Of a stretch of DNA of 64,000 nucleotides, positions 8,780 through 38,014 are shown piece after piece (the first letter of the stretch is position 1; the number at the start of each line of letters is the position of its first letter). Source of the stretch: Romanomermis culicivorax (lineage: Eukaryota; Nematoda; Enoplea; Mermithida; Mermithidae). A model generated the notes under the pieces. The model did not search any database, had not been told where the DNA came from, and saw nothing but the letters and a program-made list of their open reading frames with translations. The translations under genes and the position numbers were made by a program. The DNA lies in contig CAWUHX010000086.1 of assembly GCA_963922205.1 (NCBI GenBank), positions 310,001-374,000 of the forward strand. Reading direction: 5' to 3'.

Positions 8780-11700
8780 CTAATAGAATACGTCCATCGG
8801 GACGTGTATACCCCTTTGATGGGCTATATTGGCCAAATCATCGGCCTCCTTCCTCGCCTGTTGATTTTTGTTCATTCTTTCCCATTTGAGCAATAGGTCC
8901 CGCAAGCAGTGCACAAAATAATTGTAAGCCGTTTCGAGGCTCCAATCTGCTTTCGGCCTGTAACCTCGCGTCGTCGTCAAATATCCGCACATAAATTCGT
9001 ACACAGTGGCGATTTGTCCGTCTTCGGTTATCAACCGAATATGGTGTTTCTTATATTCGTCATAAATTGAATACGGCGGTTTGGTTAATTGCCCCACCAT
9101 CAATCGGAAAATATCGTGGCGTAAATGTATATGCCACACAACAATGTGTCGCGAAAGAACTGAAATAAATGATAATGAGTTTTTAGAATACCCGGATCCG
9201 ATACTCACGGATCACCCAAATTTCAGACTCCAAAATGTTGAAAAAAGTTTGCCACTTTGTTCAATAACCTAAGAACACGTTAAAATCAAAATTTTAAAAT
9301 TTTAAAATTTTTTTAAATTTTTTAAATTTTTTAAAAAATTTTAAAATTTTTTAATTTCGTTATAGAAATATCCGCCGTACTCAGAAACATAGGAAAACAT
9401 GTTTCCCCAACCCGGAACACAATTTTTCACTTCAATAATTGAGTGATCCGTGGCCGAGTGATCCGGGTTTTAGACGTGCATGTCTAAAACCCGGATTATT
9501 TTCTCATGGATCACCTAAATTTTAGACTCAAAAATGAAGAAAAAAGTTTGCCAACTTGTTCAACATACTAAACAGGGTCAGGGGAACACGTTAAAATCAA
9601 AATTTTAAAATTTTAAAATTTTTTTAAATTTTTTAAATTTTTTAAAAAAATTTTAAAATTTTTTAATTTCGTTATAGAAATATCCGCCGTACTCAGAAAC
9701 GTAGGAAAACATGTTTCCCCAACCCGGAACACAATTTTTCACTTCAATAATTGAGTGATCCGTGGCCGAGTGATCCGGGTTTTAGACGTGTATGTCTAAA
9801 ACCCGGATTATTTTCTCACGGATCACCTAAATTTTAGACTCAAAAATGAAGAAAAAAGTTTGCCAACTTGTTCGACATACTCAACAGGGTCAGGGGAACA
9901 CTTTAAAATCAAAATTTTAAAATTTTAAAATTTTTTTAAATTTTTAAAATTTTTAAAAAATATTAAAATCGTCATAGAAATGTCCGGCGAAAATGTTTCA
10001 GGACTCAGAAAAGTTAATATTGATTATGAAGAATCTAATAAATCTATCTAACAGAAAACATATCCATAAAAAGGCAAATAAATACCTTTTATGCCGTGCG
10101 ATACGGCGTAATGTGCATCCCGATAATGCCAGGGCCCAGTTGCACCAACGACTAGTTACTCATAACTAGCTACTAGCTAGTATAAAAGATTTATATACTT
10201 GTATAGTTAAAACGAGTTGCACCAATGTTCGCTAGTTATCATTCATGAGTAACTAGTCGGGTATTTTCAACTAGACTAGTGAAAACGAGTTGCACCACTT
10301 ACTCATAATACGCAGGCTTTTTAACTAGCGATTTTAGACTAGTAGAAGTCTTCTCATTGTGTAATGTGTATATTGTTGTCGCGCGCAGCCTACGAGATTA
10401 TTCACAAACCTAAACGTATGTGTTGAAATTATATTTCTCTCGATAACTATGCCGAAAATTGTTAATTCGGAAAAATTGAAAGTCTTGCTGTTAACAAAAA
10501 TAGAGGAGAAGAAAGATATCTTGTTCGGAAAATTTAGCGATTGTCTAACGAAAAATGATCGTTGCAAAGCCTGGCAAGAAGTTTACGAGTTCGGTAAAAG
10601 TATTGGGTATGGTTTTTCTTCCGATTCAACGTATGCCTACGTTCGTGATACCGTTTGGCCAAACATTCGGAAAGCTAGTGTCGCAAAGCGGGATAAATTA
10701 CAAAGAACCGGCGAAGGAAACGAAGATGGCGGTTTATCAGCAGTCGACGAAAAAGTCATCAACATCATTGGTAACGAATCAGCAGCTGTTATGGGTTTAT
10801 CGATCACGGAATCAATGGATCGAACGGAAAAGTATTGTGAATCGGCGAAAATTATTGAGGACACGGATATGAGCATCAGGTGAAAAATTAATGGTTTTAT
10901 TAATTTGGGGATACACAAGACAATACAAAGAATAAAAAGTGTATGTATTGCAACATGGGAGGGGGTATGGGGTGTATTACACTTCACCTAAAGGCCCACC
11001 TACTTTCAAACAATTTTGGAGAAAAGAAAATTTTCGAACAGTTTTCTACGGAAAATTCCTCTGCAAACCGTATTTTTTGATCGAAATTAGTTTAATACAG
11101 CTGAAAAAGCTAAATATGATGAGAAATGACGTGAAAATAGCAGTATTCCCCTGTAATAAGCTAATTTCTAATATTGTCTACACATTTATGTCGTTTCATG
11201 AGCTTAAAAGATTAAACCGCTGTGTTACTCTTAAATAACTGATTCAAATTTTTGTTGTAAAACGCAATTTCTTTTACATAGTTTTAAAATGTAATGAAAA
11301 ACCAAGAATTTTTCCGGGAGGAACCGGGAAAAAACCGGGAATTTCATTTCAGGAAAGTAGTGGCCACCCTGACATCAGCAATTGTATTTCAGCTCCGTTT
11401 CGAACAAAAAAGTTGCAAAAAAACGCATATCCTCAATGATTGACAAAGATTCGACGGATGATGCGACTCCTGGCACAGATGAAAAGCGTTCTTTACAAAT
11501 CGTTAACTTGAAGCTATCTAACGCGTATTTGGAGAAAAAATTGAAATTGGTCGACTCGCTCGAATACAAGGCGCAACTGGAAATACGCTTGCTACAAAAG
11601 CAACTGGCGGATGATGGGCCGGCAGCCTCGATTACTTGCAATGTTCGTAGTGAAACTGCACCTCCCGTTCTTGCTTATGAACAACCGGGTAGTTCCGAAA

Positions 11701-14700
11701 ATCTGTATCATTATATGTATTGACATGTTTACGCACAATGCTGAATGATTGACAATACATTTCACACTATAACTTTTAATGATTGAAACTTTGAACAATA
11801 AAATTACGACGTTGAGGTGCGTTATTTTCAATATTAGGAATATCATTGTCATCTTCAATGACGAGTACATCGTCTACATCAATAACATTACCGGATAGTA
11901 ACATATTATGCAATATACAGCACAATTTCACAACTTCAGCCGAAAATTCCGGTTTTAATCGTAAAAATTGTAGGCAAGCAAAACGTTTCTTCAAAATTCC
12001 AAACGAATTTTCTATAATTCTCCGCGTGCTTTTATGAGCTCTGTTATAAGCTCTTTCAGCTTCTGTCATCAAGGCATCAACTTTCAAAATTGGCGTAACG
12101 AGCCAATCATTGTTCGGGTAACCCGAATCTCCCAACAAAACAGCTCCGGGTATAGGCCGCCAACCGTTGTCAAATCTTCCTGCAAATTTTTAAATTTAAC
12201 CAGGGGTATAAGAAATAGTGTTGCAACGGGTCAGGAAACACTGTGGAATGTTAAAATACACGTTTTTGAGCGTTTACACCTGTTTTTGACCTATTTTCTT
12301 ATGTTTTCGAAAGTAAGTAGATTTTTTGTCCCAGACTCCCCTCCACAGGGCCCGAGGACCCCCCCTGTAAAATTCTTTCCGTGCATGTCTGGTGTATAGA
12401 GATGTGCCGGGTACCCGGGTCCTGACCCGGCCCCGCAGGTACCCCGGCTAAAATTGTAGACCCGAACCCTGACTCCCCGATGTTCAAATTTCAGGATTCA
12501 TAAAAAAAATTTCCTGGAATCTTGGGGGGGGGGGTTTGGGGTAAACTTGATAGTTCCACAGTAAGCTACGGAAATAATACTTTTCAATTTACCTGCAATG
12601 TTGCTTGTGCGTAATACTCTGGCGTCATTCACACTACCCGGCCACCTCGAATTCACGTAATAAAATTTGTAATCAGGACCGCAAATCATCATACAGTTCA
12701 ACGAATGAACACCTTTTCGGTTGACGTATTGAGGCTCGTTTATACTTGGTGCTTTAATCGGTATATGCGTCCCGTCAACACATCCAATAACACACGGAAA
12801 ATTCGAAATTTGATAGAAATCGTTCACAACGCTGGCGATATCGCGGGGCCAGCTAATAATTTTATCAAAATAATGATTGTTTAAAATCGTCACAACTTTA
12901 TGAACTTTTCTAGAGACCGTTGATTTGTGCGGACCGTGCGCATCACCAACCACTTGCATGAATGATCCGGAAGCCAAATATCGAATGCATAACAATAACT
13001 GTTCTTTCGGTTCTAAAGGGAAGTTTCTATCCGTATTAGCGATAAGCAAATGACCAATATCTCCCAAGATAGTTTCGATCGTTTCTTTAGGAAATCGGAA
13101 TCTCTCGGAAAAATCCTTTAAATCAAAATTTATGCGCGGCCTACACAGTCTTCCTCTAGCCACATCAATATCATCAACATCGCTGTTATCCGAACTATCC
13201 GATATTTCGTACATGTCAATAAAACCAACCAACTTTCTTAGACCGTGCCCTCTCGACTGGTAGAAAATAAATGCGGTTTTATTCACTAGTTGATGAAGAA
13301 AGACTAGTTGAAAATGTTGGTGCAACCGCAACTCATAAACCAGTTCAAAAATCGCTAGTTTATGAGAACTAGTATACTCATGAAAAACTGACTAGTTAAA
13401 AACTTGGTGCAACCCAATTCGCTAGTATTCTAGTTAAACATTCACTAGTAGAAAACGTTGGTGCAACCCTAGTTATCATTTTTATTCCAACTCATAGCTA
13501 GTTATGAGTAACTAGTCGTTGGTGCAACTGGGCCCAGTTGTCCATAAAATTGGGTAGCTGTAAATTGTTCTTGAAAATTTGTGATTTCCAAGATCGACAA
13601 GCGACACCCCGATTAGCATCCGACGGGTTTACGAAGCAATTTCTTGTAGCTGTTAAAATGGTTAGTGTAATGGAAATCCTATAACATGTCCCATTTAATA
13701 GTACTTACAGACTCGCATTTCGTCGTAATTTCGCAGATTGTTCGTAATTATGTTGACAACGTGGTTGTGGAGGCTCTGTTGTACATCTGACACAACAATT
13801 TCAGCCCAACCGGCAACATAGGTGGAAACGGGAGCCATGTAGACGTGGCAATCATTTTGGACCAAAATAGGCATAACGACGTGATGAAATTCGTTTACTA
13901 GATGTTCGCGTATGCCTACGGTCAGTGCATATTGCGTCGACATCATTTCTTAACACAGAGATATAAATGCAACTTTGAAATTAGTATATGCTTAAAATAA
14001 CTCAATCTGTCTTACTTCTAACCAACACCAATTCGTGTTGGTCGCCTATGCAGGGCCAAGTGGCTTCAAATGGAAGCGATATTTCTTTGCCAACGGCATC
14101 GAGTATGCAGCGATGGTTAATACACCTAAACATCAAAGTTTAGAAGAATAACTGCACTAAAATGCACTAAAACATACTGCGCTGCAATATACTAAAATTG
14201 AAATAAGGTTATAAATTGATCAGTTTTGCCTACCATTCTACCAATTTACGCCAATGTCGTCGGCCCTCCGTGTTGATTTGATCTTTGTTAACAATGAAAC
14301 ACTTTCCTGCTTCCAACGATGGAAACATAGTAGCGTTGCCAACGACAATAAGCAAGCATCGCGCACGGCTTATTGCGACATTTAAACGTTTAAAGTTTTC
14401 CAAGAATCCGATGGTCAGATATTGATTTGATCGCACGATGTCGTAGATGACAATGTCGGATTCTTGACCCTGTTAAAAACCCTAAAGTAATGTATAGTGA
14501 GTTAAGTAGTAATCATAATTTACCACCTGAAACCCCTCTACTGTTCCAATTCGAATTTTGCATAGATCTTCAACGAATAATTCGCTACGTGAGTAGCTGT
14601 GATTCTGCAAATATGTGCCATTTAAAATGGCTTTGCACGCTTCCTCTACTTTTGCTCGTAATTGTTTAACCTGTGCGCTGTACGACGTTATAATAACTAT

Positions 14701-17700
14701 GTTGTCGCAGCGCATTTTGTATTGTCCAATTAAGGAAGCCGCTAGATTGACACATGCAATTGCTTCGCCTATATTTTGCAGTGATCTCGAATTATCGTCG
14801 GCGCATTCTTCTTTCGCTATATGAATCCAAGCTACTGGATATCCAGTCATCATTGTCGGAAATGATTTCGGAAGTTGCAGCATGCGTTGTTCTATAAGCA
14901 CAAATGTTGAAAGGATAAAATTTACTAGCACTCAAATCATTTTAAACATTGTCCCTATACTGAGTCACATTGTTACCTTTCGTTGTACAATTTTGTACCC
15001 GATTTTCGTACGTCAAACTACTGACTATGCTTCCAATTGTCGGGTGCATTCGATATTGTTGATTCAATAATTTGTACGGCATGTTCATGTTGAATAACCG
15101 TTCAAACAGGGTATGACTGAATCCTTTTCGTTCTGCTTCTTTGGAAGTCACACACGGCCCTAATTGGCAAGGATCGCCTAAAAGGGTGACCTGAAAGAGT
15201 GAAAATGAAAGAAAAACATAATATTTGGAAGGAAAATTTTTAACAGTTCATTACTCTTCCACTTATGTGGAGTCTTGTAACCGGAATCAAGGTGGTTGGT
15301 TCAGTATCCTGGGCTGCTTCGTCGATCAATACCAGTTTGAAAAAGCATGGTTTTAGGCGGGCATCGGCTGCTCCATTGCAAGTCGTAAAGATTATACGAT
15401 ATTTGCACCTGAGTAGCTGTTTTTCGTATTTGAATAGGCATGCATCTGCTTTTTTGTCTTCGTCTTTCGTGAGTGGTGTCTTTCGTGAGTGGTCACCATA
15501 CTTCATTTCGATGCATTGCCTCCAGTTGGTTTTGCTGAAGTTGAAAAGATAGAAACAAGTACAATGTTAAATAGACGGAAACAATTTATGTATTATAAAA
15601 ATTTGATATCTTTACCAAAATGCCAAATTTTCGGGCTGCATTGCTACGGCTCGCATTGTGTAGGGTCGAACATCATCGTCCGGCTGGTAGTACTTAGCTC
15701 GGCTGGTAAGGCGCACGATGTTATTTTGAACTTGTTCTTTTTCATTGCCTGCATTTTCAACACTTTTCAAAAGTGCTCGTATGATATTGTCTACGGCAGT
15801 GTTTGAAGGCGCCGTTATCAAAATTTTTTGACCCTGATCAAGGGCAAATGCTCCTCTGATAATACAAGTAGCTGTGGATGTTTTTCCCGTTCCAGGCGGG
15901 CCCTGTACAAACAAGTTAAGCGTAAGGGTTGAAAGATATAAATATGTTGATATTATTACCTGTATTATCGAAATAAAATTCATTTCTGAAAGGCGAACGG
16001 CCTCTTGTTGACATCCGTTCAGACGGCAAGAGTCAAACAGGTCGTTGCGATTTGCGCCAATATCCTAATATTGACAAGTAGCTGTTGGATCACGATGTTT
16101 TCCACAAATCAATAGATCGCGAATTGGTTCGCTAATCTGTGGTACCGTTTCATTGAGTGGTCGGAGGGGCATTCCGGAGGCTTTGTCAATATACTTATTG
16201 CCCATCTCTTTTTCTTTCAACTTTAACCGCCACATTGCGGTGTTGGAGTCCACCATGCTCAAGTGCTTTATGGTGTTGAGACAGTTTAGTGTTCTAAATA
16301 AACGATGATGCTCAACCAAAAAAAATAGAAGGTCTATTTACCCAAAAAATGAACATGAATGCTTTATACACATATACCTTTGCATCGCCGTATCATCTCC
16401 TTTCCAAAGGATGTTGCACATTTTGCGGCCCGGTTGGCGACTTAATTCGACAAATTTTCCTAGGGCATTGGCAGCATCCTGGTCCCATTCCAGGTCTTCA
16501 TCTGCATCGTCTTGATCTTCGGCATCAGTATCAAATGGTGCATGTTTCGATGCCATCCACTTTTGCAACTTGTTTATGCGAAACTTGAGGATGTCGACGA
16601 CTAAATTGGCGCTTCTATCTAAAAACAATTGCAAGTAATAAATTTTATTAAATTTTATTCTGCTCGATTACTCACTATCGGGTACATTGAGTAGCGTTGC
16701 GTCGCAATACGCATCAGTTTCGTACCACCTGCCATCACCTCCAAGCTCCAAAATCGTCAATTGAATCTTTTGATTCGGACGAACGACTAAAGATATATGT
16801 TGGATTTGAATTGCAATTAGGTCAAAATAACATATCAACTCACAATTGGGTAGCAGCCCGCTGAAGTTTAATTTTCCTGTGGCGTATGAAGGCGGATCTA
16901 GCAAGTACTCGATTGACTGAAAGTGTTTGCTGAACGCCAACAACATTTTATCATTATCGTCGGCTTGTTGATTTATCCAGTGTAAAAAAGTATCGTAATA
17001 TTCGTTCGGCGAATGATACCTAAAAGCAGTTGTAAATAATCTACAACAAAACAGGGTTTTTTTTGGTGTATTTTGCGGAAAAAACAATGTGGAACCATAC
17101 CTGTATTTGGGGGGGGGTTTGGGGGGACCCCTCCCCCCATTTGGCCAACGTACCCTAAATCATTCCCCCAATCCCCCCCCCCCCCATTGGGAAATAGTTG
17201 AAAAAATTGGCTAAAAAGTGTATGGTTTTTTGCCTTTTTGGGTAAAGAATTCTAATTTTTCCTACCCCCCCCCCAAAATTTCGGATTTACCCCGCCCCCT
17301 GACTGGTCGGAGGTCCTACAGTTATGTGTGGAACTGTAGACCGACAAGATCACAAACGGAAAAAAATAACGAAGGACTTACGCAGCTTTCTGACATGGTT
17401 TTTCAAATTCGTCTGATTCGACTGTCCGCTCCAAAAAAGCGCTGAACCCAGTTTCGTAATCAAAACTGCATTTCACATCATTATGGTCGTACGACACAGT
17501 ATTCGGCGCAATTTGTTTTATTGGTTCTTGAGGTTCATGGAATTCTTCGTAGTGTACTTCTACGGCGTCTAATTCATCGAACTCCTCCTCAACTTCGGCG
17601 TTGATTGGAGGCTAACAAATAATTATACAACTTAGAATTATTACAAATGTGTGATTTTGAAAGACAAGTTACCTCAAACGGCGCAGGCTCGTCGATATGT

Positions 17701-17717
17701 GAGTGCGAATAGGACAT
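8780..17717 (-). CDS. UPF1-like superfamily 1 helicase with C-terminal extension, 15 exons
   Basis: Exons in transcription order: 17717-17673, 17611-17382, 17019-16844, 16786-16676, 16618-16378, 16293-15961, 15902-15616, 15534-15255, 15190-14977, 14891-14527, 14469-14234, 14125-14016, 13948-13709, 13649-13535 joined to 10129-10086, and 9159-8780. Splice phases agree throughout. SF1 motifs appear in order: Walker A GPPGTGKTS (exon 7), IDEAAQ (exon 8), LLGDPCQLGP (exon 9), EGFQ/GQESDIVIYD across exons 10/11 and NVAISRAR (exon 11). This layout is that of UPF1/SMUBP2-type RNA/DNA helicases, which unwind nucleic acid with ATP. The start is the first ATG of an acidic N-terminus with a good donor. 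The last four exons are not recognised. Breaks: an in-frame TAG at 16065-16067, unless an unseen intron removes it, and a Harbinger insertion in exon 14. Exon 1-2 joins are less sure than the core. Confidence 0.8.
9170..10010 (-). repeat. 312-bp tandem repeat filling the helicase's last intron
   Basis: About 2.6 units lie inside the intron 9160-10085. Each unit is bounded by CCGGGTTTTAGAC and GTCTAAAACCCGG, which meet as palindromes around a GTGCAT-like spacer at 9463-9495 and 9775-9806, giving a 312-base period. The middle is a run of AAAATTTT blocks followed by GAAATATCCGCCGTACTCAGAAAC. A unit therefore looks like a MITE with its own inverted ends, stacked in tandem. The right arm's array at 25130-26330 is the reverse complement on the + strand. 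Confidence 0.85.
10449..11723 (+). CDS. Harbinger Myb/SANT-like DNA-binding protein, two exons
   Basis: Exon 1 is 10449-10879 (donor CAG|GTGAAA), exon 2 is 11393-11723 (acceptor TTGTATTTCAG); phase 2 joins both. The product is about 253 residues. The N-terminal 90 residues have the tryptophan-spaced helical pattern of a SANT/MADF-like trihelix (KAWQEVYEFGKSIG, then DTVWPNIRK). The C-terminus has a heptad-like stretch (LQIVNLKLSNAYLEKKLKLV), likely a coiled coil. In Harbinger elements such a protein binds the transposon ends and brings the transposase to the nucleus. The ATG chosen is the first in frame after the inverted-repeat region. The intron holds a GGGAA-rich segment near 11310. No breaks seen. 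Confidence 0.8.
11776..13214 (-). CDS. PIF/Harbinger DDE transposase, two exons
   Basis: Exon 1 is 13214-12593 (donor GCAG|GTAAATT), exon 2 is 12179-11776 (acceptor AATTTGCAG). The product is about 342 residues, the usual length for HARBI1-type nucleases. Catalytic residues of the DDE_Tnp_4 fold are visible: first Asp in GCVDGTHIPI, second Asp in LLGDSGYP, Glu in RIIENSFGILKKRF. The N-terminus is acidic (SDSSDNSDVDD), followed by a helix-turn-helix-like stretch (HGPHKSTVSRKVHKV). A longer frame runs upstream into the inverted repeat; I chose the inner ATG before the acidic segment. The intron contains a small G/C-rich insert at about 12395-12480. The frame is unbroken, so the element may still be active. 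Confidence 0.88.
17101..17335. mobile_element. G/C-tract MITE in helicase intron 2
   Basis: About 235 bases from CCTGTATTTGGGGGG to ACTGGTCGGAGGTCCTACAG, with long G and C runs at the ends and AAAAAGTGTATGGTTTTTTGCC inside. Two close relatives stand at 44409-44645 and 44803-45013. It lies wholly in the intron 17020-17381. It has no coding capacity. Confidence 0.7.
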
Positions 17718-19112
17718 ATTAGTTGTCGTGAAGAAACAGGAAACACGACCGCTTGTTCAACAATAAATAAATAAAATGAGGCCTCACGTTTATCGATGTA
17801 AACGTGAGTAGCTGTACAAAAAGTTGCACAGAGCAGTTATTCGCTTCGCCAACAATCAACGAAACAAATAATAAATCATACGTAAAGGTTGGTTGTTGTA
17901 AAACGAGTAGCTGTGTAACACGTTTTCACAACGTTGTCTAAAAAAATTACGTATATATCCCCATTCCCCATATACCCCCCGTCATAATTAATGGTTACCT
18001 ATTGTTCTGACGGTTGCGATAAGCTTTGACACTTGCTCTCGGCTTCCCGTTTTGCACCAGCGAAGCGATGATGATTTGGTGGCGGGGGGCGGCGTTGAAA
18101 CGGTGTTTTTAAAAAAAGTTTTGCGAATTGCGAGTGATCAATTTACAGTAAACTATTCATCTTATCCTTTTATTTTCAGGAATCGGATATAACTTGTTTG
18201 TCATAACACAAAATGCATATTATAGTTTTATGCACTTTCGCGTTACCATGAACCAACAATGAAAAGTTTTAGTCACTTATAATGAATGTCGGTAAAATAT
18301 TTCAAAACCGAGCAGTATTTTACTACTCAACTCCTCCATTTGCCACTATTGCAAATATAATTGCAACAGTGCCCAGCCGTGGGGACGTGGACCCTGAGGT
18401 TACGCACGGCCATGTGCAAAACTTAAAAAACTTAAAAAAACCGTGCAAAAGATCAAACAAATATATAAAGAAAATTGTACACAACCATGACTAGAAAACA
18501 TAGATGGATAGAGACAGAATTAGGAAATTAAAGAATTTTTTTGTGTTTTTTTATTTTTAAATTTTTTTTTTTTATTTTTTTTATTTTTTTGGTTTTAAAT
18601 TTTTTTTTATGAATATGCGTAATATAAACCTAACAAAATTAAAAAAAGCAATAAACAAAACATTAACAAATTGGGAAAAAAGTAAAACTAAATTTGACAA
18701 AAAATATCATAAAAACAAAACATAAACATAAAGAAATAAAATAAATGTTAACAAAACTTAAAATTGAAATTAACGTGCACAAATTAAAACATTTTAACAT
18801 TACATATATACAAAGCGTGGTTTCTTCCTAAACAAGTGTTAATCTTACATGTATCTATAAATTGAAATTGTTAAAACATTCTATTTTCTATGTTACGTTT
18901 CAAATTATAAAATTATTCACTTATGTTTCGGGTTAAATTTGTACAACAGCACTATAAGCTTTTGAGCATAACAACCTAAGTAGCATTTGGAAAAAACCAC
19001 ATCGAATACATAGTGACTAGAAGTAAACAATGAACACATGCACACATCACAATAAAATGGAAAACTCACAGTACTTACAGAACACAATAATAAACATTAC
19101 TCTTCATTAAAA
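17718..19112. other. Spacer between the two left-arm genes
   Basis: Upstream (5') side of the helicase gene and downstream side of the basic-protein gene. Two octamers (GTAGCTGT on the + strand) stand at 17808 and 17907. The rest is A/T-rich, with long T runs at 18540-18610. A + strand frame near 18282 has no supporting feature. No gene is supported. Confidence 0.5.
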
Positions 19113-19941
19113 TTAAAAATTTAGACTAGTATTGAAGGAGGACCTACGCGGGCAAGGAACCCAACCATTGGAATTCCACCAACGTACTCTGTTATATAAA
19201 CTTACCCCAATTCGCCAGCATACTCGGCGTGCTCCTTGAAGTTGGCCAATGTTTATGTCCGCATCGACATCCATGTTTTCGAATATAGGTGGCGGATCTT
19301 CTATTTCGGCAAAGCCTTGGCCAATTCCATTCATAATTACATCATTCAATTGATCAACATTAACATGATTAAGTTCGTTGATCTGTAGATTATCTGGATT
19401 TTCTTCGCGGAGTGGAGGGTTTGCACCATGTCTCATGTTCCGACGTCTAACCCCAATTTGTCTATTGTTGGGTCGCCGATGGTGCTGTCCTCGTCGCACT
19501 GCACATACATTGGAAAAAAAATTAAGGACAATCATTAACTGTCAATGTATCTCCTTTATACAGCATAATTATCTTTCTGTTTACATAATGATCTTCCTTT
19601 TTCATATTTTTCAAATGATTATGGTTACAATGTGGAATCTATTTACCTCTTCGGGGTGCTCTTATTAGAATCAATGGCAAATCATCATCGTCAATTTCTG
19701 GAATCGGATTAGCCATATCAACGACACGGTCTTCATTGCCGTTGAGTAGCTGTTGTTCTTGCGGGGGTGTATATTCGCGTTGGTGAATTTCCGGAATCGG
19801 ATTAGCCATATCAACGACACGATCTTCATTGCCGTTGAGTAGCTGTCTGGCCCGTCTACGCAAATGACGTGGATGACGCCGCGCATTGTCCACTCTTCTT
19901 CGATGTCTTCCAATGCTTATTGATACATGAATGCGAGGCAT
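19113..19941 (-). CDS. Small basic protein of unknown function
   Basis: Exon 1 is 19941-19647, starting with an ATG at the outer edge of the divergent region; the donor reads GAAGAG|GTAAAT. Exon 2 begins at 19498 after a GTGCAG acceptor and can run to a stop at 19113. A GTAAGT near 19200 may end it earlier, so the C-terminus is uncertain. Exon 1 is arginine-rich (RHRRRVDNARRHPRHLRRRAR) and then holds a direct repeat: QLLNGNEDRVVDMANPIPEI occurs twice, 31 residues apart. Exon 2 begins basic (RRGQHHRRPNNRQIGVRRRN) and turns acidic. I recognise no domain. Arginine-rich stretches suggest nucleic-acid binding or nuclear import, by inference only. The gene is first in the left divergent unit. Confidence 0.5.
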
Positions 19942-20833
19942 TTCGAGTGAAAAAAGGTTTGCAGAGTAATTCTTTTTTCAAGCAAGAATGATACACTATT
20001 CTATTAAGGTGCATCTTAGGGGCAAAGTCCATGTTTGTGCATAAAGGTAAACATTCATTTCCTACTGTAATGTTTACTGGTCACTCATTCCATGTGGACA
20101 AAGGACAGGAAGCAAAAATTGATTATGTGTTGGGCAATGAAGAATGTTACAAATCTTGGGTTGGATTGATGGGTCATGTATAGAATTGTACATAGGAAAA
20201 CAATTTTGCAAGCTTGTGTTGTACCAGGAGAAAAATCTGGGCCTGAAAACCTAAAGAAGATCAAATGTCGTTATATTGTTTATGTGAAATAAATATTGTG
20301 ACTGTTAGATACAATTGTGTTCATGTTTGTACATATATTGCATTTCAAATTGCAGGTAGCTGTTTACTGTAACATTGATATTGCGCCCCATTTCTTCATC
20401 GCGCAGCGCAAGCAACGCAACGCATTTTTGCCCGAGTCTTGCGTTTCAAAGAAACAACGAATGACGCCTAAAAGTAAGATTGACAACTAATATTACTTTT
20501 TGTGTTAGCCTAATGTATTAAGTAATTTTAGTTAATGCTTATGGTATTATTGATTTTTATTTATTTTTCATATTTTTTGCTTTAGCAAACGACGAATGAA
20601 ATTGTATTTTTTCGCAATTACGTAATTGGATCCACAGCTACTCACCATCTACGATAGAAATTAAAAATTCAACGATTTACCGCTTTTACCTCGGCTACTC
20701 ACACGTCACCAAATAATTCTCTGTCGATATAGACCACGACGTAGCAATTCGAATTTATAGTAAATTCGCCGTCAGCTACTCTCAAAGTCAACAATAATTG
20801 ACATTCACAAAGTCGCTCACAGCTACTCAAGTA
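19942..20833. promoter_or_regulatory. Divergent centre of the large element
   Basis: It separates the - strand genes (start 19941) from the + strand transposase gene (start 20834). The octamer changes strand here: GTAGCTGT at 20356 is the last leftward copy, ACAGCTAC at 20634 the first rightward one. It should hold promoters for both units and could hold an origin or protein-binding centre. I see no clear TATA pair and no gene. Confidence 0.55.
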
Positions 20834-23800
20834 ATGTATTCGGACGACAACCAATACGACTCCGACCACGATTTCAAGCTAACTCCTAGTCTACCGTCGC
20901 AAGTTGATCAACCTAAAGATGATCTGCCCAAGATCGAATCAAATGCAAATGCAACATCTGCCGAAACGGAAGATACGCCAGTTACTTCAGGATGTGCCAT
21001 TCCCGTTATGACCAACAGACAATGCAGATTAGAATATAAGGACTTGGATAAGTTAATCGGTAAGCTAATTGTTTATTTTGGTGAAACTTACATCCAAAAT
21101 TAATTACAAGTTGTTTGTATGTTTTCCAACTGTAACTAATATTTAAGGTTCGGCTAACGCAGAACGATTAATCAACAAACCGTCACCATGTCCAAAAGGA
21201 GGAGACGTTTACTTGTTTCCATACTCCAGCAAAGAAGATAGTAATATACAGGTTACATTATTTATGTTAACCTTATATAATATTTGTACTTCCTCATAGA
21301 AACCTTTCTCTGCGATTGTTTTAATTGGATAAACGATGGAGTTCGAAAACTTCCGAGGTCTAATCCAAAGTATTCAGCTACTCACTACGCTGTCGCCTGC
21401 GATCGAAATTCCCAATCAAAGAAGAAATTTAAAAGAATGGAATATCGGCAGATAAATACACCAGTGGACGAAAAACTACACGTCGGAGTAGTCCACTACA
21501 TTGGCGATGAAAAATATGGTGTCAAGCGAAAGCATTATAATTCGAACAGTGACAGAGTCTTTATTCGAAATGCTCCAGTAATCAAGAAACTCGTAGAAGT
21601 GGAACTTAAACGAGATCCGAACCTTACCGCTTCTCAATTGTACGAAAAAATTAGAATAGACAATCCTGCTCCACCGGGCCTGGAAGCTGTCGTACATGGC
21701 AGAGATCGAAAACAAGTAAATATAATTAAATAAATATCTCAACTAGTACAATTTTTACAACAGTCATAGTTTTAAAGTATAAATGTGCTACAAACTAAAA
21801 TTACTCTTTTAGATGTCCAACTTCAAATACGTTATTCAAAATAAATTTCGGCCGACAAAGGACGCCATATACAATTTAAACACGTTCATTCGCGAGAATG
21901 AACGCCAATTTATAATGAGCATAGAACAAACGCCTCAAGACTTTTTGGTTTCCTGTATGTTGCCGGACACGCCCGAAATAATCAACGAATTAATAACAGA
22001 ATATCTAAACGAGCCATTTGTCGTTCTTTACGACACGACGTTTGAATTGGGCGAGTTTTATGCGTCAGCAGCAGTTTATCGCCAAAAAAGCCTTATCGGC
22101 CAACCGGTTTTCCCACTCGGTGTACTTATACACGAGAAAAAATTCAAAGAAAACCATTGCCGCTTCATACAAAAAATTTTTTGACAGCTACCCATTCATA
22201 TAACGAATGGGAACATCAAAACCGTTATAATTACCGATCGCGAATTTGATTTCCGAAATTTGACGCCAAACATGACTCACGTTTACTGCTGGCGACATTT
22301 ACTCGACAACGTTACTCGTAAAATTACTGATTTGTGTCCCAAAAATAACGACTTGCATGTTGCCATATTGAGCAATATGTATTCGATTCTAAAATCGGCC
22401 TCCGAGAAACTAGCAGCATTAAAAGCTGAAGAACTTAGCGAAAAATGGCCCGAAAAATTCAAACAATATTACTTTTCGTCCATTGCCCCAGCTGTTCGAA
22501 CAAGCGGAAAATGGGTGTTGGAACCGATCGGATTGTACTCCAGCTTCTCAGGTATGTTAATTTTGATATTATTTCAAATATTAACAAACGTAATGTTTTC
22601 ATACGTCAAAAGCCTATAGTTTTAATTTATTAAAGCAAATAATATATAAATTTAATTAAATAATTTAAATATATATTTTTTAATTAACAATTTATAGTTT
22701 TCATTAAATAATTTAAATATATATTGTTTAATTAATAATTTATAGTTTTCATTAATTAATTAAAATACGTATTTTAGGCATAACGACCAACGCTAGCGAA
22801 AGTTTCAACAGAGTCCTAAAGAGCTGGAATTCTTGGCAAGAAATGCCCATCGACGTGGCCGTTCTCGCTTTCCACACCCTGTTTAATTATTACAACGTCG
22901 ATTATGACCGCGCCAAATATGGACTTGGGGATTTCAAGCTCAACGCCCACATTCCATTGAGGCCTGCCAACGAAATGCCGAAACGAGATATAATCGAACA
23001 GGGAAAGGTTTTACAATATTGTCGATTTGGCCAAGTATACGTACAACTGCAGAAGGAAGAGCCAAAATCAGATCACCGCGGAGATGCCGATTCAAATTTC
23101 CGAATCAGTCAATTTTTGGTCGAAAATGGAAAGGTGGTCCATGACACCCTATCAAGAGTAATAATTCATAATGTAGTTTATATTTTTTTAAATTAATTTG
23201 CAAATTTTTTTTAGTGCTTCAACGTAACCGAAAACGGCCAGGTGTATCTAGTTCGATTCAACCCCACCAGCTGCGGTTGCGGCGACAAGGCATGCGCCCA
23301 CTTGATTGCCGCTCATTTGTCGTGCAATTTACCAGTTACCATAAAGGCAACCAGAAACATCACAACTTTGCGACGTGCGGACAAACGAAAAATAAGTAAA
23401 TCAAAGTTGGGACGCAAACGACCTCGCAAGGACGACTTTACGAACGTAAAGCCGAAAATTACCGATGTTGAATTTGACGACGAGGATTCCGAAACTCAAG
23501 TACAAACAGCTACTTGTGATGACGACGTCGAAATCACGAAGCCCGCAAACACACAATTAGATACAGCTACTTGTTATAAGAACATCAAAATCAGGCAGCC
23601 TGCAAACAAACAAGTAGAAACAGCTACTTGTGTTGACGACGTCAAAATTCAGAAGCCTGCGACAAAATATTTGGATTTCGACACTCAAGTAGATACAGCT
23701 ACTTGTGCCTACGATTCCCAAAGTGATGCCGTTGAAAAAAACAACAGCGATTTTACGAATTGCCGGGGGCATTCAGACGAAACAACAAATTGTGCCTACG

Positions 23801-24208
23801 ATGCCGGTCGATTAAATGCGAAAAATCTTGAGTAAGTGGTTAAAATATACTTGTTATCATTGTGGTTAAAAATCAAATTTACATATTATTCAATTCAGAC
23901 GCATAGAAGAAGAATGCGAATCATTATTCGATAAGATTGGTAATGCGTCTCCGCCCAATTTCAACTCACAGGCGACAGTTTTGGTGGAATCACAATCGCA
24001 AACCACCGAAGCTCTAAATACAAAAAGGTAATCATGTAACAAATACGATCTGCACTTACATCTTTCAATAAACTTACATATTCAGACCTATTTTAATCAC
24101 ATTACCATTTTCTATTTAAGAGAGACTACAATTATAATTGATTCGCAAATTCCAACCTGCGATGAACTTGAAGACACGGATTTAATACCGGAAATGCGAC
24201 AAAAACCA
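20834..24208 (+). CDS. MULE-type DDE transposase with SWIM zinc finger
   Basis: Exons with matching phases: 20834-21059, 21148-21240, 21300-21715, 21813-22551, 22778-23157, 23215-23831, 23899-24027, 24121-24208. Exons 2-3 resemble the FLYWCH/GCM-like N-terminal DNA-binding region of MULEs (FLCDCFNWINDG). Exon 4 holds the first two catalytic Asp residues (VVLYDTTFELGEF, VIITDREFDF) and WRHLLDNV; exon 5 has the Glu region (NASESFNRVLKSW). The SWIM finger is in exon 6 (CGCGDKACAH, pattern CxCx4CxH). Then comes an acidic linker in which TATC, coded ACAGCTACTTGT, recurs four times. MULE transposases cut and paste DNA at long inverted ends. Odd: an in-frame TGA at 22182-22184 between conserved blocks. 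An ATG at 20798 is possible; 20834 follows the octamer and starts an acidic N-terminus. Exon 8 is in phase with the PHD/peptidase exon, so this may be one polyprotein gene. Confidence 0.85.
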
Positions 24209-24269
24209 GTAATATTTAATTTATTTTAGATTTATTTTTTAGTTGAACTAATTTAATTTTTGCATTCAG

Positions 24270-26872
24270 ATGGACTTATCAACGCTAATTACTAACAACC
24301 TCTCGAATTTAGAACCCGAAGAGGATGAGGAAATAATAGACCGCCTTAGCGATGTCGACGACGATGCTTTATTGAACATATCATTAAAATCGAAAGATGC
24401 GAAGCCGACATTCTGCGAATGTCAAGTCGATAAAACTGTCAATCGCATGCTTGAATGCGATGCCCAAGTTGCCGAAAATTGCTGAATGTGGTACCATCCC
24501 CACTGCGAAAATATTTCCGATGTTTATTTTTCGCTTAAAAATAATCGAAGAAAACCCGAAAACAAATTTTATTGGGAATGCGCGCACTGCTTCGTTATTC
24601 ATTACTTCTGAAATTCGCCGACTGTGCAAAAATATCAACTTCAGAATACTTGTACAATCGATCCTGGCCTTACAACTTTCTATATTAAGGCAAAGTTTTG
24701 TCAAAAATTCTTGCGACAGGTAATTTAAATGCTGTATTACATAACATTCATGAATTAATTTCATACTTTACAGCTACCCATCGAATTGTCAATGTTAAAA
24801 AAATCATTGACATTGGCACTTAAACATCAATTCGGGGAAGCTGCATTGGAGTGGGTGAATTACATACGCTACCAGAAGAATGCGGTAGAAGAAAAAAATA
24901 TAACCAAAGACGGCTCGGGCACAAAGATCGATTTATACGGTGCCACCCATGAGTTCTTCTTGAGCCATATCAGCACCATGTACACTCTACAACGCCGCAG
25001 CGAGTGTTCCGTAGCCAAATGCCCAATGCGGATTAACACCCAAGAAATAACCGGCTATGCACTGTAAGTCTTTTGTTGATTAATCTCTTGAGGTTTTTGA
25101 GATACTTGTTAAAAGTTCTTTCTTTTCAAAAAGTGTTTGCATACCCAATTCGAAGTGGAAAAATTGTTTTCCTACGTTTCTGAGTACGCCGGACATTTCT
25201 ATGACGATTTTAAAAATTTTAAAATTTTTAAAAAAATTTTAAAAAATCTAAAAAAAATTTAAAATTTTAAAATTTTGATTTTAACGTGTTCCCCATACCC
25301 TGTTGGGTATGTCGAACAATTTGGCAAACTATTTTCGACATTTTTGAGTCTGAAATTTAGGTGATCCGTGGGAATATGATCCGGGTTTTAGACATGCACA
25401 TCTAAAACCCGGATCACTCGGCCACTGATCACTCAATTTTTGAAGTGAAAAATTGTGTTCTGGGTTCGGGAAACATGTTTTCCTACGTTTCTGAGTACGG
25501 CGGACATTTCTATGGCGATTTTAAAAAATTTTAAAATTTTTTAAAAAATTTTGAAAAATTTGAAAAAATTTTAAAATTATAAAATTTTGATTTTAACGTG
25601 TTCCCCATACCCTGTTGGGTATGTCGAACAAGTTGGCAAACTTTTTTCGACATTTTTGAGTCTGAAATTTAGGTGATCCGTGAGAATATGATCCGGGTTT
25701 TAGACATGCACGTCTAAAACCTGGATCACTCAGCCACGGATCACTCAATTTTTGAAGTGAAAAATTGTGTTCTGGGTTCAGGAAACTTGTTTTCCTACGT
25801 TTCTGAGTACGCCGGACATTTCTATGACGATTTTAAAAAATTTTAAAATTTTTTAAAAAATTTTAAAAAATTTAAAATTTCAAAATTTAGATTTTAACGT
25901 GTTCCCCAGACCCTGTTGAGTATGTCGAACAAGTTGGCAAACTTTTTTCGACATTTTTGAGTCAGAAATTTAGGTGATCCGTGAGAATATGATCCGGGTT
26001 TTAGACATGCACGTCTAAAACCTGGATCACTCGGCCATGGATCACTCAATTTTTGAAGTGAAAAATTGTGTTCTGGGTTGGGAAACTTGTTTTCCTACGT
26101 TTCTGAGTACGCCGGACATTTCTATGACGATTTTAAAAAATTTTAAAATTTTTTTAAAAATTTTAAAAAACTTAAAAAAATTTTAAAATTTCAAAATTTT
26201 GATTTTAACGTGTTCCCCAGACCCTGTTGGGTATGTTGAACAAGTCGGCCAACTATTTTCGAAATTTTTGAGTCTGAAATTTAGGTGATCCGTACCGAGC
26301 CGATACGGATCACTCTGTTTTAAAGTGAAAAGTTGCGTTTGAGGTTTGCGAAAATTGTTTTTCCCCGTTAGGGAGTAAAGGACTTTACCGTTTATGTTAT
26401 AGTACCAAAAAAGATAAAACGATCGAGAATTTGGCGAATAAACATCTTCGCAAAAATAAGCAAATTTGTGGACAAAGACATGATAACGGGTCGACAAAAT
26501 GTCCGGGTATACGAACTTTTTTTGCGCCTACCTTTACGATGCAACAGCTACTCATGTTGCCCCCAATTTATTTGTGCAAGGCATCATTCAATGACGTTTT
26601 TGCATTGCCGACGGAGTTGACATTTAATCGATGATGGTAAAAACAAACTGGAGTTGTGTTTTGTTTTTTTCAACTCTACATTTTTCAGATATCATCTGTT
26701 GTCGGTTATCGTTTATAACTCCAACCACTTCGCATGCATCGTCCTTCGACCGGGGACTTCATCAAAAGAATATTTCCTTTGCGACGATTTGCAGGAAAAA
26801 ATGGTACGAGTAGCAGAAGGTAGTGGAAACGGGCATGTTTTACAACATGCCTTGTATTTTCTAGATTGTTAA
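24270..26872 (+). CDS. PHD finger plus USP-like cysteine peptidase exons
   Basis: Exons 24270-24719, 24774-25063, 26403-26615 and 26689-26872 join in phase. The first gives an acidic stretch and then a PHD-like Cys/His array: CEC, LECD, NC, a stop codon, MWYHPHC and WECAHC. Next come a peptidase Cys box (NTCTIDPGLTTF), two CxnC pairs of a zinc finger (CSVAKC; CGQRHDNGSTKC) and the His box (YNSNHFACIVL), ending in a stop at 26870-26872. This order is that of USP/C19-type deubiquitinases. The gene is in phase with the transposase exon at 24121-24208, so it is probably its C-terminal part. Two TGA codons (24483-24485, 24609-24611) interrupt the first exon. The PHD spacing C-x4-H holds only if the first is counted as one residue. 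The weak donor at 26615 (GA|GTTGAC) is the least certain joint. Activity is unknown. Confidence 0.7.
25130..26330 (+). repeat. About 310-bp tandem repeat filling the peptidase intron
   Basis: Roughly four units lie within the intron 25064-26402. Palindromes CCGGGTTTTAGAC / GTCTAAAACCCGG (variants) are centred at 25381-25412, 25693-25724 and 25994-26025, giving spacings of 312 and 301. Each unit includes CGTTTCTGAGTACGCCGGAC, an A/T run, TTTTAACGTGTTCCCC and GGTGATCCGTG. It is the reverse complement of the array at 9170-10010, so both arrays read the same way relative to the gene that contains them. Confidence 0.88.
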
Positions 26873-27430
26873 ATATTTTTAATTTTTTTTGTTAATTTTT
26901 CTCTCTTTTTGTTGTGTTTTATTTACTGGTTTTACCTCGTGCAATTTTTTAAAATTTTATCTCGCTTGTTATTGTTCGTTTAAGTTTTATCGCTTTATAA
27001 ATTTTATCTCGTTTGTTACTGACTGTTCAAATTATATCGTTATTGTTCATTTAAATTTTATCGCTTTATAAATTTTATCTCGTCTGTTATTGATTGTTAA
27101 AATTCTATTGCTTTATAAATTTTATGCATACTGTAAATAATTGTTAAATTGTTATTGTATTTGTGATTGTTTGTATAGTATCTCCGTATACATTTTTCCG
27201 TTTTTTTATTTTTTTATTTTTTTTCGTTTTTCTTTTTTTTAGTTTTTTTTGTTTTTTCAAGTACCTGTTTTTATTTTTTTTATGGTTTTTTTCTACTTTT
27301 TTAGGTTTATCCTTTTTTTGTTTATTGGTTATTCTTTTTTTTGTTGTTTTCTTTTTTTCTGTTACTGTACATAGTTGTTTGCTTAAATGTAAATAAAATT
27401 TGGTACATAATTGGTACATAACAGGAATCC
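26873..27430. other. T-rich spacer after the peptidase gene
   Basis: Runs of TTTATCGCTTTATAAATTTT repeat four times (26940-27130), then a near-pure T/C tract at 27190-27360. This is probably 3' UTR and spacer. Open frames on either strand here come from low complexity. Confidence 0.5.
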
Positions 27431-28725
27431 TGTGATTGATTGAAAAATAGATGATCCCTCTCTATACGAACTTGTTTTATGAGGTTTCTGACTACATGCA
27501 TTAATTCTCTTCCAACCCATAGTTTTTATGTTTCATACAAAAACACCGATATATAAAAAAGTTCGAATTAAGTACGAATGTGTGGTCTAACGGCAGATTA
27601 ACAGATTTAAACTGCCGCTAGAGCGCATTTTTATACTTTTTTTCAACCTGAATTATTGAAAAAATTTTTTGGTTATTTTACATTTGAATTACCATTTTAT
27701 TGAAAAAAACAAAAATAGAACAGGCTAAACATTATATCAATGATTTAACAACTGTTCTATCATACCAGCTAAATAGTAATTATGTATATATTTTCAACTT
27801 TCCTTATAAAACATAAAAGTGACAGGTTGCAAATGTATTCCAGCATTGACAACAGAATGTATCGATCTGGTGACTGCACTTGCTTACTTTTGATGTGGTT
27901 TTAGACACAGGTTAAAAATTCGCGCCAACCCGTCAATTTGATGTTCCTACAATTTCCTCATGTTTATATACATATGCCAATATTGGCTCATTAGGATTTG
28001 ATTAACCAAAAAGGACTAAATCGATGACTTAACAACTGTTCTATCAAAGTGTACTTCATCGATTATGGAATTATGGAACCTTGAGGTTATTCAATCCTTT
28101 TACAGTTCAAGTTGCACATCCTCAAAACCCATTCATGATTGCTCATAAAAACTATTTACATGGCGCCAGATCAAAATGTACTGATCTGGTGACTCCACTT
28201 GCCTACTTTTGATGTGGTTTTAGACACACGTTAAAAATTCGCGCCAACCCGTCAATTTGATGTTTCTACAGTTTCATCAAATTTATATACGTGTGCCAAT
28301 ATGGGTTCATTAGGATTTGAACAAACCAGAAAGGCAAAAACTTAATTGATGAATTAACGACTGTTCTATCAAAATTTATTTTGTCGATTACGGCAATATT
28401 GAACCTTGAGGTTGTTCAATCCTTTTGCAGTTTAAGTTAAACATAGACATATAGAAAGTATATACACGGATCCAGATCCGTAAACTTTTTTTTATTCAAA
28501 CCTAGGTGCAGTTTAAGATGATACAAATTCAAATATTCTATTTACGGGAATAAAAATCATTGACTAAACTACCCATATCTGAATTAGCCTTTCACATTTT
28601 CTCCTAAATTTTTTATACACAAATATATGTAAAGTCATGGAATCAATAACTTACCTGTTACCTTCCACAATGCACTCACCCAGAAAACTATGCCGACTCT
28701 TGATTGCATAATAAAGCACAATAAA
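27431..28725. repeat. Right subterminal repeats, inner part
   Basis: Two tandem copies of a 320-bp unit start near 27850 and 28170. Each contains GATCTGGTGACT, CTTTTGATGTGGTTTTAGAC, CGCGCCAACCCGTCAATTTG and an AACTGTTCTATCA-like block. The unit corresponds in inverted sense to left repeats carrying CTACGGGTTGG and GATAGAACAGTAGTTAAG. The retrotransposon interrupts the region at 28726. Confidence 0.7.
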
Positions 28726-28729
28726 TGGC

Positions 28730-29626
28730 TGTAACGTACCTGCTAAAGCAGTACTGTAAATATGTAGCATACTGTATGTAATAGACATTTATTAAATATT
28801 ATTAATTTTCACATTTTATCGTCTCAAGGATGTCTGGGATTCACACCCAAACATTCCTACAAAATTACGTGAAGTACTTTATTTTGATCCGTTCACACCC
28901 CGGTAGCCCAATTAAGATGCCCTAATTAATTTGCACAAACGGCAGCTGTTCCCCTAGAACCCACACTAAACTACACATTCCACAGCTACCGTAATCCCCA
29001 GTAAAAATCGTAAACAACACCTGCACACAGGAAAATGCGTAGAAGCCCCGCCGTACAGTAGTCTCAAGTGTAACGGTAGCGGCGACCCCACAAAACATGT
29101 GTATACAGAGAAACCGATACAGGAAGCATGCACAGAAGCACAAAGGTGTGGCCAATCCCACCGTAGAAAGCAAGTGAAGCACAGAAAGCATACGGTACCA
29201 GAAAAGCGTTAGAGAGGCGTAACTAAGTAAGCATAAAAAGCGTAGCAGGAAATGACGATTGGCGGAAGGAGATGGACAGAAGCTCGACCTCCCGCGACGC
29301 CCAGGGAGCGGCCAGAATCGCCGTATAAAAGAAGAAGCAAAGCGTGATTTGATCATTCTTATTCTTGTGGTTTTACGTTTTTGACTTCCGCGCTCGTCCC
29401 GTCCTTTTTATACATTTGCAAGCAGCCGACTATTCGAAAGCAACTTAAACCGAGGCCCCCGTTTGTATTGTAAATCGAAACGCGTTTTATTGTCGACGTT
29501 CAAGCGACCGTCGATTACCCGTTGTTTATTGTAACCGTTCGCCCGCGCCCCCGTCCCGTTATTTGTCCCCGCCGTATCGACCAATTGGTTAGAAGTAAAG
29601 CACCTCACACAAATCTGGTCGTTACA
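28730..29626 (+). repeat. 5' LTR
   Basis: 897 bases, near-identical to the LTR at 37114. Ends TGTAAC / GTTACA. The copy contains AGAATCGCCGTATAAAAG (3' LTR has TTTAAAAG), a possible TATA element. An antisense open frame of 144 codons exists in both copies but shows no sign of being a gene. A possible primer-binding site (TGGTGACCG) starts at 29632, six bases after the LTR; I cannot assign its tRNA. Confidence 0.95.
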
Positions 29627-29869
29627 TATTTTGGTGACCGTACCGTTACGTTAACCACTGGAACTCCCTGCCCCCAATTAGGTGTACTCTTATCCAGGCA
29701 TTTAGAAGCATTAGATAATACAGTAGTAATCATTTCCTACAGTAAGACAGTATTCATAGAAAGCAAACTGGAAATCCCCTCCAACGAGACATTAAGCGAT
29801 ACATTTAAACGAATACAGCGTGAAGCAAAAATTGAAGCATTTAAGCAGAAATCCCTTCGTAAACCAAGA

Positions 29870-31459: not shown

Positions 31460-31630
31460 ACCCCATCCCATAACTCAACTTTTAAAGTTTTACAGAATGT
31501 TCAGATTTCAAACCGGCCACCCCCCCAGCTCAAAATCACAAAACAACAACACCAAAAGCCCCAACACCAAACCAGCCACAACGAAAACATACAGTGCCCC
31601 GCCGCCTCCACTAAAACATTCTATTGGCTG

Positions 31631-37082: not shown

Positions 37083-37100
37083 ACGAGGACGTTCAACTCC

Positions 37101-37113
37101 GGAAGGAGGGAAA
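37101..37113 (+). promoter_or_regulatory. Polypurine tract
   Basis: GGAAGGAGGGAAA ends immediately before the 3' LTR; it is the expected primer for plus-strand synthesis. Confidence 0.9.
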
Positions 37114-38010: not shown

Positions 38011-38014
38011 TGGC

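Follow-up and report, generated by a model that had tools for sequence, protein, structure and literature searches.

A 64,000-nucleotide stretch of the genome of the mermithid nematode Romanomermis culicivorax (contig CAWUHX010000086.1, positions 310,001 to 374,000; hereafter the window) contains a transposon that, judged by its sequence features, is a Mutator-like element (MULE) with a UPF1-like helicase gene. The central, gene-bearing part of this element carries 20 exact copies of one octamer, ACAGCTAC, all of them in the sense orientation of the local gene. The comparisons described below support the view that selection acts on this word in the nucleic acid and not through the protein. We lean, by a modest degree, towards reading the octamer as a family-specific identity tag carried by the mRNAs of this MULE family.

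On the forward strand, the complement GTAGCTGT was found at 13554, 13646, 14593, 15413, 15868, 16078, 17808, 17907, 19746, 19839 and 20356 (11 copies), and ACAGCTAC itself at 20634, 20819, 22184, 23506, 23563, 23620, 23695, 24770 and 26544 (nine copies). Relative to the local gene this amounts to 20 sense and 0 antisense copies in 13.1 kb (13500-26600), with the word's strand switch at the divergent centre (20364-20633). These counts and the single switch agree with the first-pass annotation of the window, in which one coordinate was wrong (23516, really 23506). An order-2 Markov model of the region gave an expected count of 0.13, and the octamer had the top score of all 8-mers occurring at least 4 times. 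Its score was 81, whereas the best 8-mer of 60 order-3 Markov resamples reached no more than 13.5, the comparison being made among 8-mers with at least 3 G/C and no run of 5. The Markov expectation and the resamples therefore rule out chance, simple repeats and base composition as the cause. Some A/T words were commoner in raw counts, for example AAAAATTT with 27, but they occurred in both orientations (16/11). Among words that do not overlap the octamer, the next polar ones were GATCACTC (8/0) and ACCCTGTT (7/1), mostly from a 312-bp tandem array; the right array has these polar words of its own because its units lie in tandem. Equal enrichment and polarity of other 8-mers, which the annotation had named as grounds for giving up its claim, was thus not found. 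Three more octamers were present in the rest of the window, at 28982 and 37366 (in a pair of long terminal repeats [LTRs]) and at 41668, as the annotation had said.

Three genes of the element were modelled by eye. Gene B (13500-17717, minus strand) has 13 exons with one in-frame TAG and is predicted to encode a UPF1-like SF1 helicase, with Pfam matches to AAA_11 (E 3e-27) and AAA_12 (E 1e-26). Gene A (19116-19941, minus strand) has 2 exons and would encode a small arginine-rich protein without a Pfam match. Gene C (20834-26631, plus strand) appears to encode a MULE-type DDE transposase with SWIM-like and PHD-like fingers. Its DDE pattern and SWIM-like finger were read by eye, and the match to a PHD finger is weak (E 0.008, below Pfam's cut-off). 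The typed gene C protein itself gave no Pfam match for a MULE domain up to E = 1; PF10551 was found for the catalytic exon in 4 of 8 homologues. The element thus has a MULE transposase catalytic domain (via homologues) and the terminal inverted repeats of a MULE. The left and right terminal inverted repeat regions (4478-5424 and 38328-39799) include arms, at 4502-4746 and 39523-39767, that are 96% complementary, with further pairs inward. Neither region contains an octamer, in line with the annotation. For target site duplications, which in MULEs are 8-11 bp long, a search at lengths 8 to 10 gave matches only inside or at the edge of the terminal repeats. Both large genes of the window copy have in-frame stops, and from those in gene C we take this copy to be decayed; many other copies of the MULE exon are stop-free. 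A protein search with the SWIM exon returned four relatives, all labelled Romanomermis culicivorax, and IMG/VR yielded no relative when searched with part of the MULE exon.

The 20 octamers fall into three classes with respect to these gene models: 13 lie wholly in coding exons, 2 span splice acceptors and 5 lie beyond the gene bodies, at distances of 15 to about 415 bases upstream from modelled ATGs. Gene B has coding copies, on the minus strand, at 13554-13561 (LQLP, last exon), 14593-14600 (HSYS), 15413-15420 (KQLL), 15868-15875 (TAT, beside the ATP-binding GPPGTGKT) and 16078-16085 (TAT). Gene A, on the same strand, has them at 19746-19753 (QQLL) and 19839-19846 (RQLL). In gene C, on the plus strand, they are found at 22184-22191 (QLP, MULE catalytic exon), in three repeat units after the SWIM-like finger and a further diverged unit (23506-23513, 23563-23570, 23620-23627 and 23695-23702, all TAT), and in a late exon at 26544-26551 (QQLL). 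By reading frame, the 13 exonic copies comprise six T-A-T, six Q-L and one S-Y. The acceptor sites are at 13646-13653 (minus, last intron of gene B) and 24770-24777 (plus, gene C). The upstream sites are at 17808-17815 and 17907-17914 (minus; about 90 and 190 bp from the gene B ATG), 20356-20363 (minus; about 415 bp from the gene A ATG), and 20634-20641 and 20819-20826 (plus; about 200 and 15 bp from the gene C ATG at 20834). A comparison of flanks showed that the two gene A copies share a 93-bp duplication, and three of the gene C copies sit in a 57-bp tandem repeat that is followed by the fourth, diverged unit. Since the duplication and the repeat units account for several copies, the number of independent sites is about 16. 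One-mismatch neighbours were nearly absent from the region, with TCAGCTAC found twice in sense and ACAGCTTC once in antisense. Two sense TCAGCTACTC variants, at 20772 in the upstream region of gene C and at 21374 in its third exon, lie outside the 20. The base after the octamer is a pyrimidine in 19 of the 20 copies.

Codon usage does not account for these numbers. The spliced coding sequence contains 14 octamers, whereas 2,000 codon-preserving shuffles averaged 0.63 and never exceeded 5; comparable counts in such shuffles, a second outcome by which the annotation would have let its claim fall, were therefore not obtained. All 6 TAT tripeptides share the same codons, and 7 of the 18 QL dipeptides lie in an octamer.

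Conservation was examined in other copies of the element (numbered L) found by searching the 359-Mb assembly of 595 contigs (numbered C). Ten further copies were taken where an 11-mer version of the word clustered, among the places listed. In these, 177 of 191 alignable octamers were intact, compared with 25-76% of random 8-mers, a figure that counts repeat-unit deletions and one alignment artefact as losses. The sites at 15413, 15868, 16078, 17808, 19746, 19839, 20634, 20819, 22184 and 26544 were each intact in 10/10 copies, the one at 13554 in 8/8 aligned copies and the one at 20356 in 9/10. The site at 17907 was changed in 2/10, a third apparent change being the alignment artefact. In the most divergent copy, L023/L024 (81.5% identical), 15 of 20 octamers were intact compared with 24.8% of random 8-mers (binomial p 3e-6), and for the upstream words 3/5 were intact in L023 compared with 20% of non-coding 8-mers. 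Two variant sites of the window have the exact word elsewhere. At 16850-16857 (minus) the window reads GCTGCTAC, with ACAGCTAC in L009, L013, L019 and L023, and at 23043-23050 (plus) it reads ACAACTGC, with ACAGCTAC in L024 and, by eye, an octamer at the matching place of L006 and L060.

Because the ten copies had been picked through the word, the 29 best-scoring copies by MULE exon (L030-L058; at least six are also among the ten) were examined as well. Over four sites, 110 of 111 octamers were intact compared with 77% of random 8-mers (26/26 at 20356, 27/28 at 20634, 28/28 at 20819 and 29/29 at 22184). Where the amino acid was kept in L023/L024, the same codon was used in 29 of 30 cases within words, compared with 79.1% elsewhere (p = 0.008). 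The three frames and non-coding sites, the codon shuffle, the intactness in other copies and the synonymous conservation in the most divergent copy together support selection on the nucleic acid and not on the protein, as the annotation had proposed.

Together with the strict sense orientation, several features of the gene models point to the mature mRNA as the place where the word acts. With the variant sites 16850 and 23043 included, 15 of the 17 sites in gene bodies fall entirely within exons and none of the 17 falls inside an intron; introns make up 23-31% of the gene bodies, giving p values of 0.017 to 0.003 for intron avoidance (0/16 sites). At 24770 the word spans the acceptor (ACAG/CTAC, the slash marking the splice site), and it is rebuilt in the spliced message because the upstream exon also ends in ACAG. 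The modelled spliced word was present in 10/10 aligned copies, including L021, in which the genomic acceptor reads TCAG/CTAC (TCAGCTAC) yet the modelled message has the word. In the sister family described below, the genomic acceptor is TTTTCAG/ATACCTC and the upstream exon end ..AACAG would, by eye, give the sister word ACAGATACCTC in the message. The site at 13646 is the reverse case: the word is in the DNA and absent from the modelled message, and it was changed in 3 of 8 aligned copies. Thus, both acceptor copies reported by the annotation are present and only the one at 24770 is constrained, the one at 13646 probably being a chance splice acceptor. No antisense CAGCTAC or ACAGCTA was found in the window copy's element outside the nested LTR element (4431-28921 and 37792-39840), which makes it unlikely that the element encodes its own guide RNA pairing with 7 letters of the word.

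A sister family in the same genome has a word of its own. At C284:126500-140000 the MULE exon is 45% identical to that of the window, and a divergent helicase gene stands in the same divergent layout. This locus has no ACAGCTAC. With the centre placed at the strand switch, its top 8-mer was GATACCTC, with 13 sense and 0 antisense copies (expected 0.14) and a score of 46 compared with 12.7 for the best 8-mer of 60 resamples; an extended form, CAGATACCTC, was counted 9/0 (expected 0.01). By eye, the words lie in several coding frames and directly before start codons. The sister word falls on the aligned columns of two window sites, 26544 and 14593, and on those of 23043 or no more than a few codons away; by eye, sister words are also found at the counterpart of the 24770 acceptor and immediately ahead of the start codon that corresponds to 20834. 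Chance alone predicts about 0.4 such coincidences, and the p value for four or more is near 0.001. In L061, a half copy of a related locus (84% DNA identity), 4 of 5 words were kept compared with 38.7% of random 8-mers. The annotation had also named the lack of the word in related elements as an argument against itself. Close copies keep the word, but the sister family is without it and has a different polar word, which we take as support for co-evolution.

The two words also separate the families genome-wide. ACAGATACCTC was found at 361 places compared with 69 for its reversed control, and GAGTAGCTGTT at 313 places compared with 138 for its control. Loci were typed on contigs C1-C44, with words taken from about 100 each of the 313 and 361 places and MULE loci from among the matches listed. 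At 32 window-family MULE loci the first 11-mer was present in at least 57 sense and 3 antisense places and the second in none, among these matches. The 3 antisense places belong to neighbouring copies (2 at C10:2006292 and 1 at C5:1302069). At 9 sister MULE loci (54-69% identical to C284) the second word was present in at least 30 sense and 0 antisense places and the first in none, again among the matches listed. Neither family, then, shows the other's word at these 41 loci among the matches listed. A cluster of GTAGCTGT at C1:3884943 (L004/L005) had the look of a host control region and was set aside; the stretch is of low complexity, rich in GCT/CAG, and has no similarity to the element.

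If the octamer is an identity tag, it could work as follows. As modelled, genes A, B and C all have one word or more within about 415 bases upstream of the ATG and two or more in coding exons, always in sense. A sequence-specific trans-acting factor would bind the tag and so distinguish the element's own transcripts from others. This reader would most likely be encoded by the element, the UPF1-like helicase and the transposase being the candidates; the sister left unit (L062 1-7001) has the helicase, and helicase and transposase are the genes seen in both families. That two families in one host have different words argues against a general host reader and for one owned by the family. The sister family would have exchanged ACAGCTAC for ACAGATACCTC at several sites together, as co-evolution of tag and reader predicts. 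The likeliest benefit would be to shield tagged transcripts against decay or RNA-dependent silencing. In Clade I nematodes, piRNAs and 22G-RNAs are reported to be missing, and transposons are proposed to be silenced through RNA-dependent RNA polymerase (RdRP), Dicer and DNA methylation, with evidence from Trichinella; DNA methylation machinery is reported for R. culicivorax (PMC4323106). Because of these reports, protection of tagged mRNA from the RdRP/Dicer/DNA-methylation pathway is our leading guess at the purpose, though we put its odds well below even.

A number of observations weigh against the tag. The window sites 22184, 15413, 16850, 16078 and 15868 have no word in the aligned sister family, the letters of which rest on one two-sided copy and one half copy. 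Among the matches listed, 6 of the 32 window-family loci and 2 of the 9 sister loci have no 11-mer at all. L060 (56% identical and decayed) has only two octamers in 6.6 kb, too few words for it to define a third family. In the nine closer copies, synonymous conservation by itself did not reach significance. The intron test is of modest strength, three splice junctions bear on the choice between RNA and DNA, one of them from a single sister copy, and the gene models were made by eye, with the five upstream sites presumed to be 5' leaders. Finally, gene A, by its composition a candidate reader, was not seen by eye in the sister left unit; no gene-A-like frame of at least 60 amino acids was found there between the helicase and transposase starts.

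RNA structure next to the word was examined as well. The 30 nucleotides 3' of the word folded more stably than control stretches in the window copy (p 0.001), L013 (0.007), L019 (0.004) and L023 (0.02), and did not do so significantly in L021 (p 0.12); the test covered 5 of 11 copies, which are related to each other, and the p values are uncorrected over several window sizes. Perfect hairpins of 9 and 7 bp, at 17784-17808 (minus) and 22191-22211, start at or directly after the octamer's last letter and belong to this weak trend. A boxA-boxB-like arrangement, with a hairpin 3' of the word and an arginine-rich protein, was left as a weak lead because L021 fails, the copies are related, the p values are uncorrected and gene A is unseen in the sister family. 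Rfam gave no match within 13400-28900.

The tag has to be weighed against other explanations, of which a double-stranded DNA (dsDNA) binding site survives best, although we regard it as rather unlikely. The word would then be bound by an element-encoded protein, an anti-silencing or transcription factor like the VANC proteins, with its polarity set by the direction of promoter or polymerase. VANC proteins of Arabidopsis VANDAL MULEs act on family-specific words and remove silencing (PMC5735166; PMC10398659). Family-specific, co-evolving words are their hallmark, with YAGTATTAY for VANC21 and AGTTGTCC/AC for VANC6 (PMC5735166), and the likeness to the present case is close: the MULE superfamily, a short word of 8 to 9 letters enriched in one family, and related families that differ in it. 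The five words upstream of start codons, which may be untranscribed, would also suit a DNA site. However, VANC motifs are described as non-coding, often in tandem repeats and bound as dsDNA by a known protein (PMC5735166), whereas the octamers here are dispersed, mostly coding in all frames, strictly sense and outside introns. The wholly exonic placement of 15/17 gene-body sites does not fit non-coding tandem placement, and the 6 of 20 copies that do lie in repeats are all coding. No word lies inside introns or in the terminal repeats, DNA binding sites need no strict polarity, and in L021 the spliced junction retains the word where the DNA has lost a letter.

Small-RNA target sites seem improbable. 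Here host microRNAs (miRNAs) or small interfering RNAs would pair with the word, which the element would keep because self-restraint or processing benefits it. The octamer has the length of a seed match, is on the sense strand and has no intron site, and the silencing route proposed for Clade I nematodes via RdRP, Dicer and DNA methylation (PMC4323106) would provide a setting. As the sites are kept by selection, silencing at them would have to help the element, and a separate small RNA would be required for each family. No complementary guide was found in the element (no antisense CAGCTAC or ACAGCTA in 4431-28921 and 37792-39840). The base usually opposite miRNA position 1 is A, and the word is followed by a pyrimidine in all copies but one.

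The annotation had listed three possible roles: a signal in the RNA of both transcripts, a site bound by proteins of the element itself, and a recombination or replication mark. The first two fit best together. The third fits less well, given introns free of the word and a copy that splicing restores in the message, and we give little credence to it. Chi and KOPS are exact polar octamers oriented away from a centre; they are bacterial, chromosome-wide and not exon-restricted. By analogy, outward-pointing words might guide repair, replication or the element's SF1 helicase, in keeping with an exact octamer, strict polarity, a single switch at the centre and the presence of a helicase gene. However, spread over the whole replicon regardless of transcription was not seen, as the terminal regions, the element's outer parts and the intron interiors have none, and a host enzyme is hard to square with different words in two families of one host.

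It is very unlikely that the word is an exonic splicing signal recognised by splicing factors of the host. The word does resemble a 3' splice site (ACAG/CTAC), and two copies overlap modelled acceptors, but many exons have no word, one exon has four, the two families of one host differ in their words and the acceptor-only site is not conserved. Naturally intronless genes carry mRNA elements of the CAR-E type, which are short, multi-copy, sense, located in coding sequence and active on mRNA fate; these belong to host genes and are read by host export factors, whereas here the genes contain introns and the word is confined to a single transposon family. Selection on the protein or expansion of repeats, in which short peptides (TATC, QLL/QLP) are kept or duplicated, is hardly credible: six copies do lie in protein repeats or the duplication and TATC and QLP recur in relatives, but the word occupies three frames and five upstream sites, with the constant TAT codons and the 7 of 18 QL dipeptides noted above, and both the shuffle (maximum 5 in 2,000 runs, vs 14) and the synonymous conservation in L023/L024 stand against it.

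Other features of the window were noted alongside. An LTR retrotransposon (28922-37791) is nested in the MULE element and has one octamer per LTR; its frames resemble, by eye, gag-like zinc knuckles, reverse transcriptase and integrase, and a 660-amino-acid frame (31460-33442) resembles a membrane glycoprotein. Tandem units of 312 bp at 9273-10014 and 25157-26293 flank the gene block on both sides in inverted orientation, the right array lying between two modelled gene C exons. Frames resembling a Harbinger-type transposase and its partner were read by eye at 10365-13391, between the 312-bp repeats and gene B; in L009, L013, L019 and L027 the repeats lie near gene B without such frames. The element's ends (4431-5100 and 39100-39840) contain many GATCCGGATC-type palindromic repeats in both orientations, a word system distinct from the octamer. 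To the right of the element (50585-61450), frames resembling exons of a host carbamoyl phosphate synthetase (CAD-like) were seen by eye and contain no octamer. Animal MULEs with PF10551, including the Phantom and Trichinella groups, likewise have a DDE transposase with SWIM-like and PHD-like fingers (PMC6446971). Unlike them, the present element has a spliced UPF1-like helicase gene; the word "helicase" is absent from the main text of that paper.

Taken together, and with confidence just short of even, these results suggest that a DNA transposon superfamily labels its own mRNAs with dispersed, family-specific words that are recognised in trans and change together when one family splits from another. 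This would amount to self/non-self labelling for the transcripts of cut-and-paste elements, perhaps evolved as an escape from silencing directed by RdRP and Dicer in a nematode that lacks piRNAs. No earlier report of such a word code was found in the open-licence literature. The host clade is reported to be without piRNAs and 22G-RNAs (PMC4323106), so the case bears on how transposons meet RNA-directed DNA methylation there. Two families with different words in one genome constitute a natural specificity swap, which makes both the reader and the labelling of self-RNA directly testable. If the interpretation is true, a DNA transposon would carry a family-specific word code in its exons and on the sense strand, and the VANC/VANDAL arms race would have a counterpart in animals.

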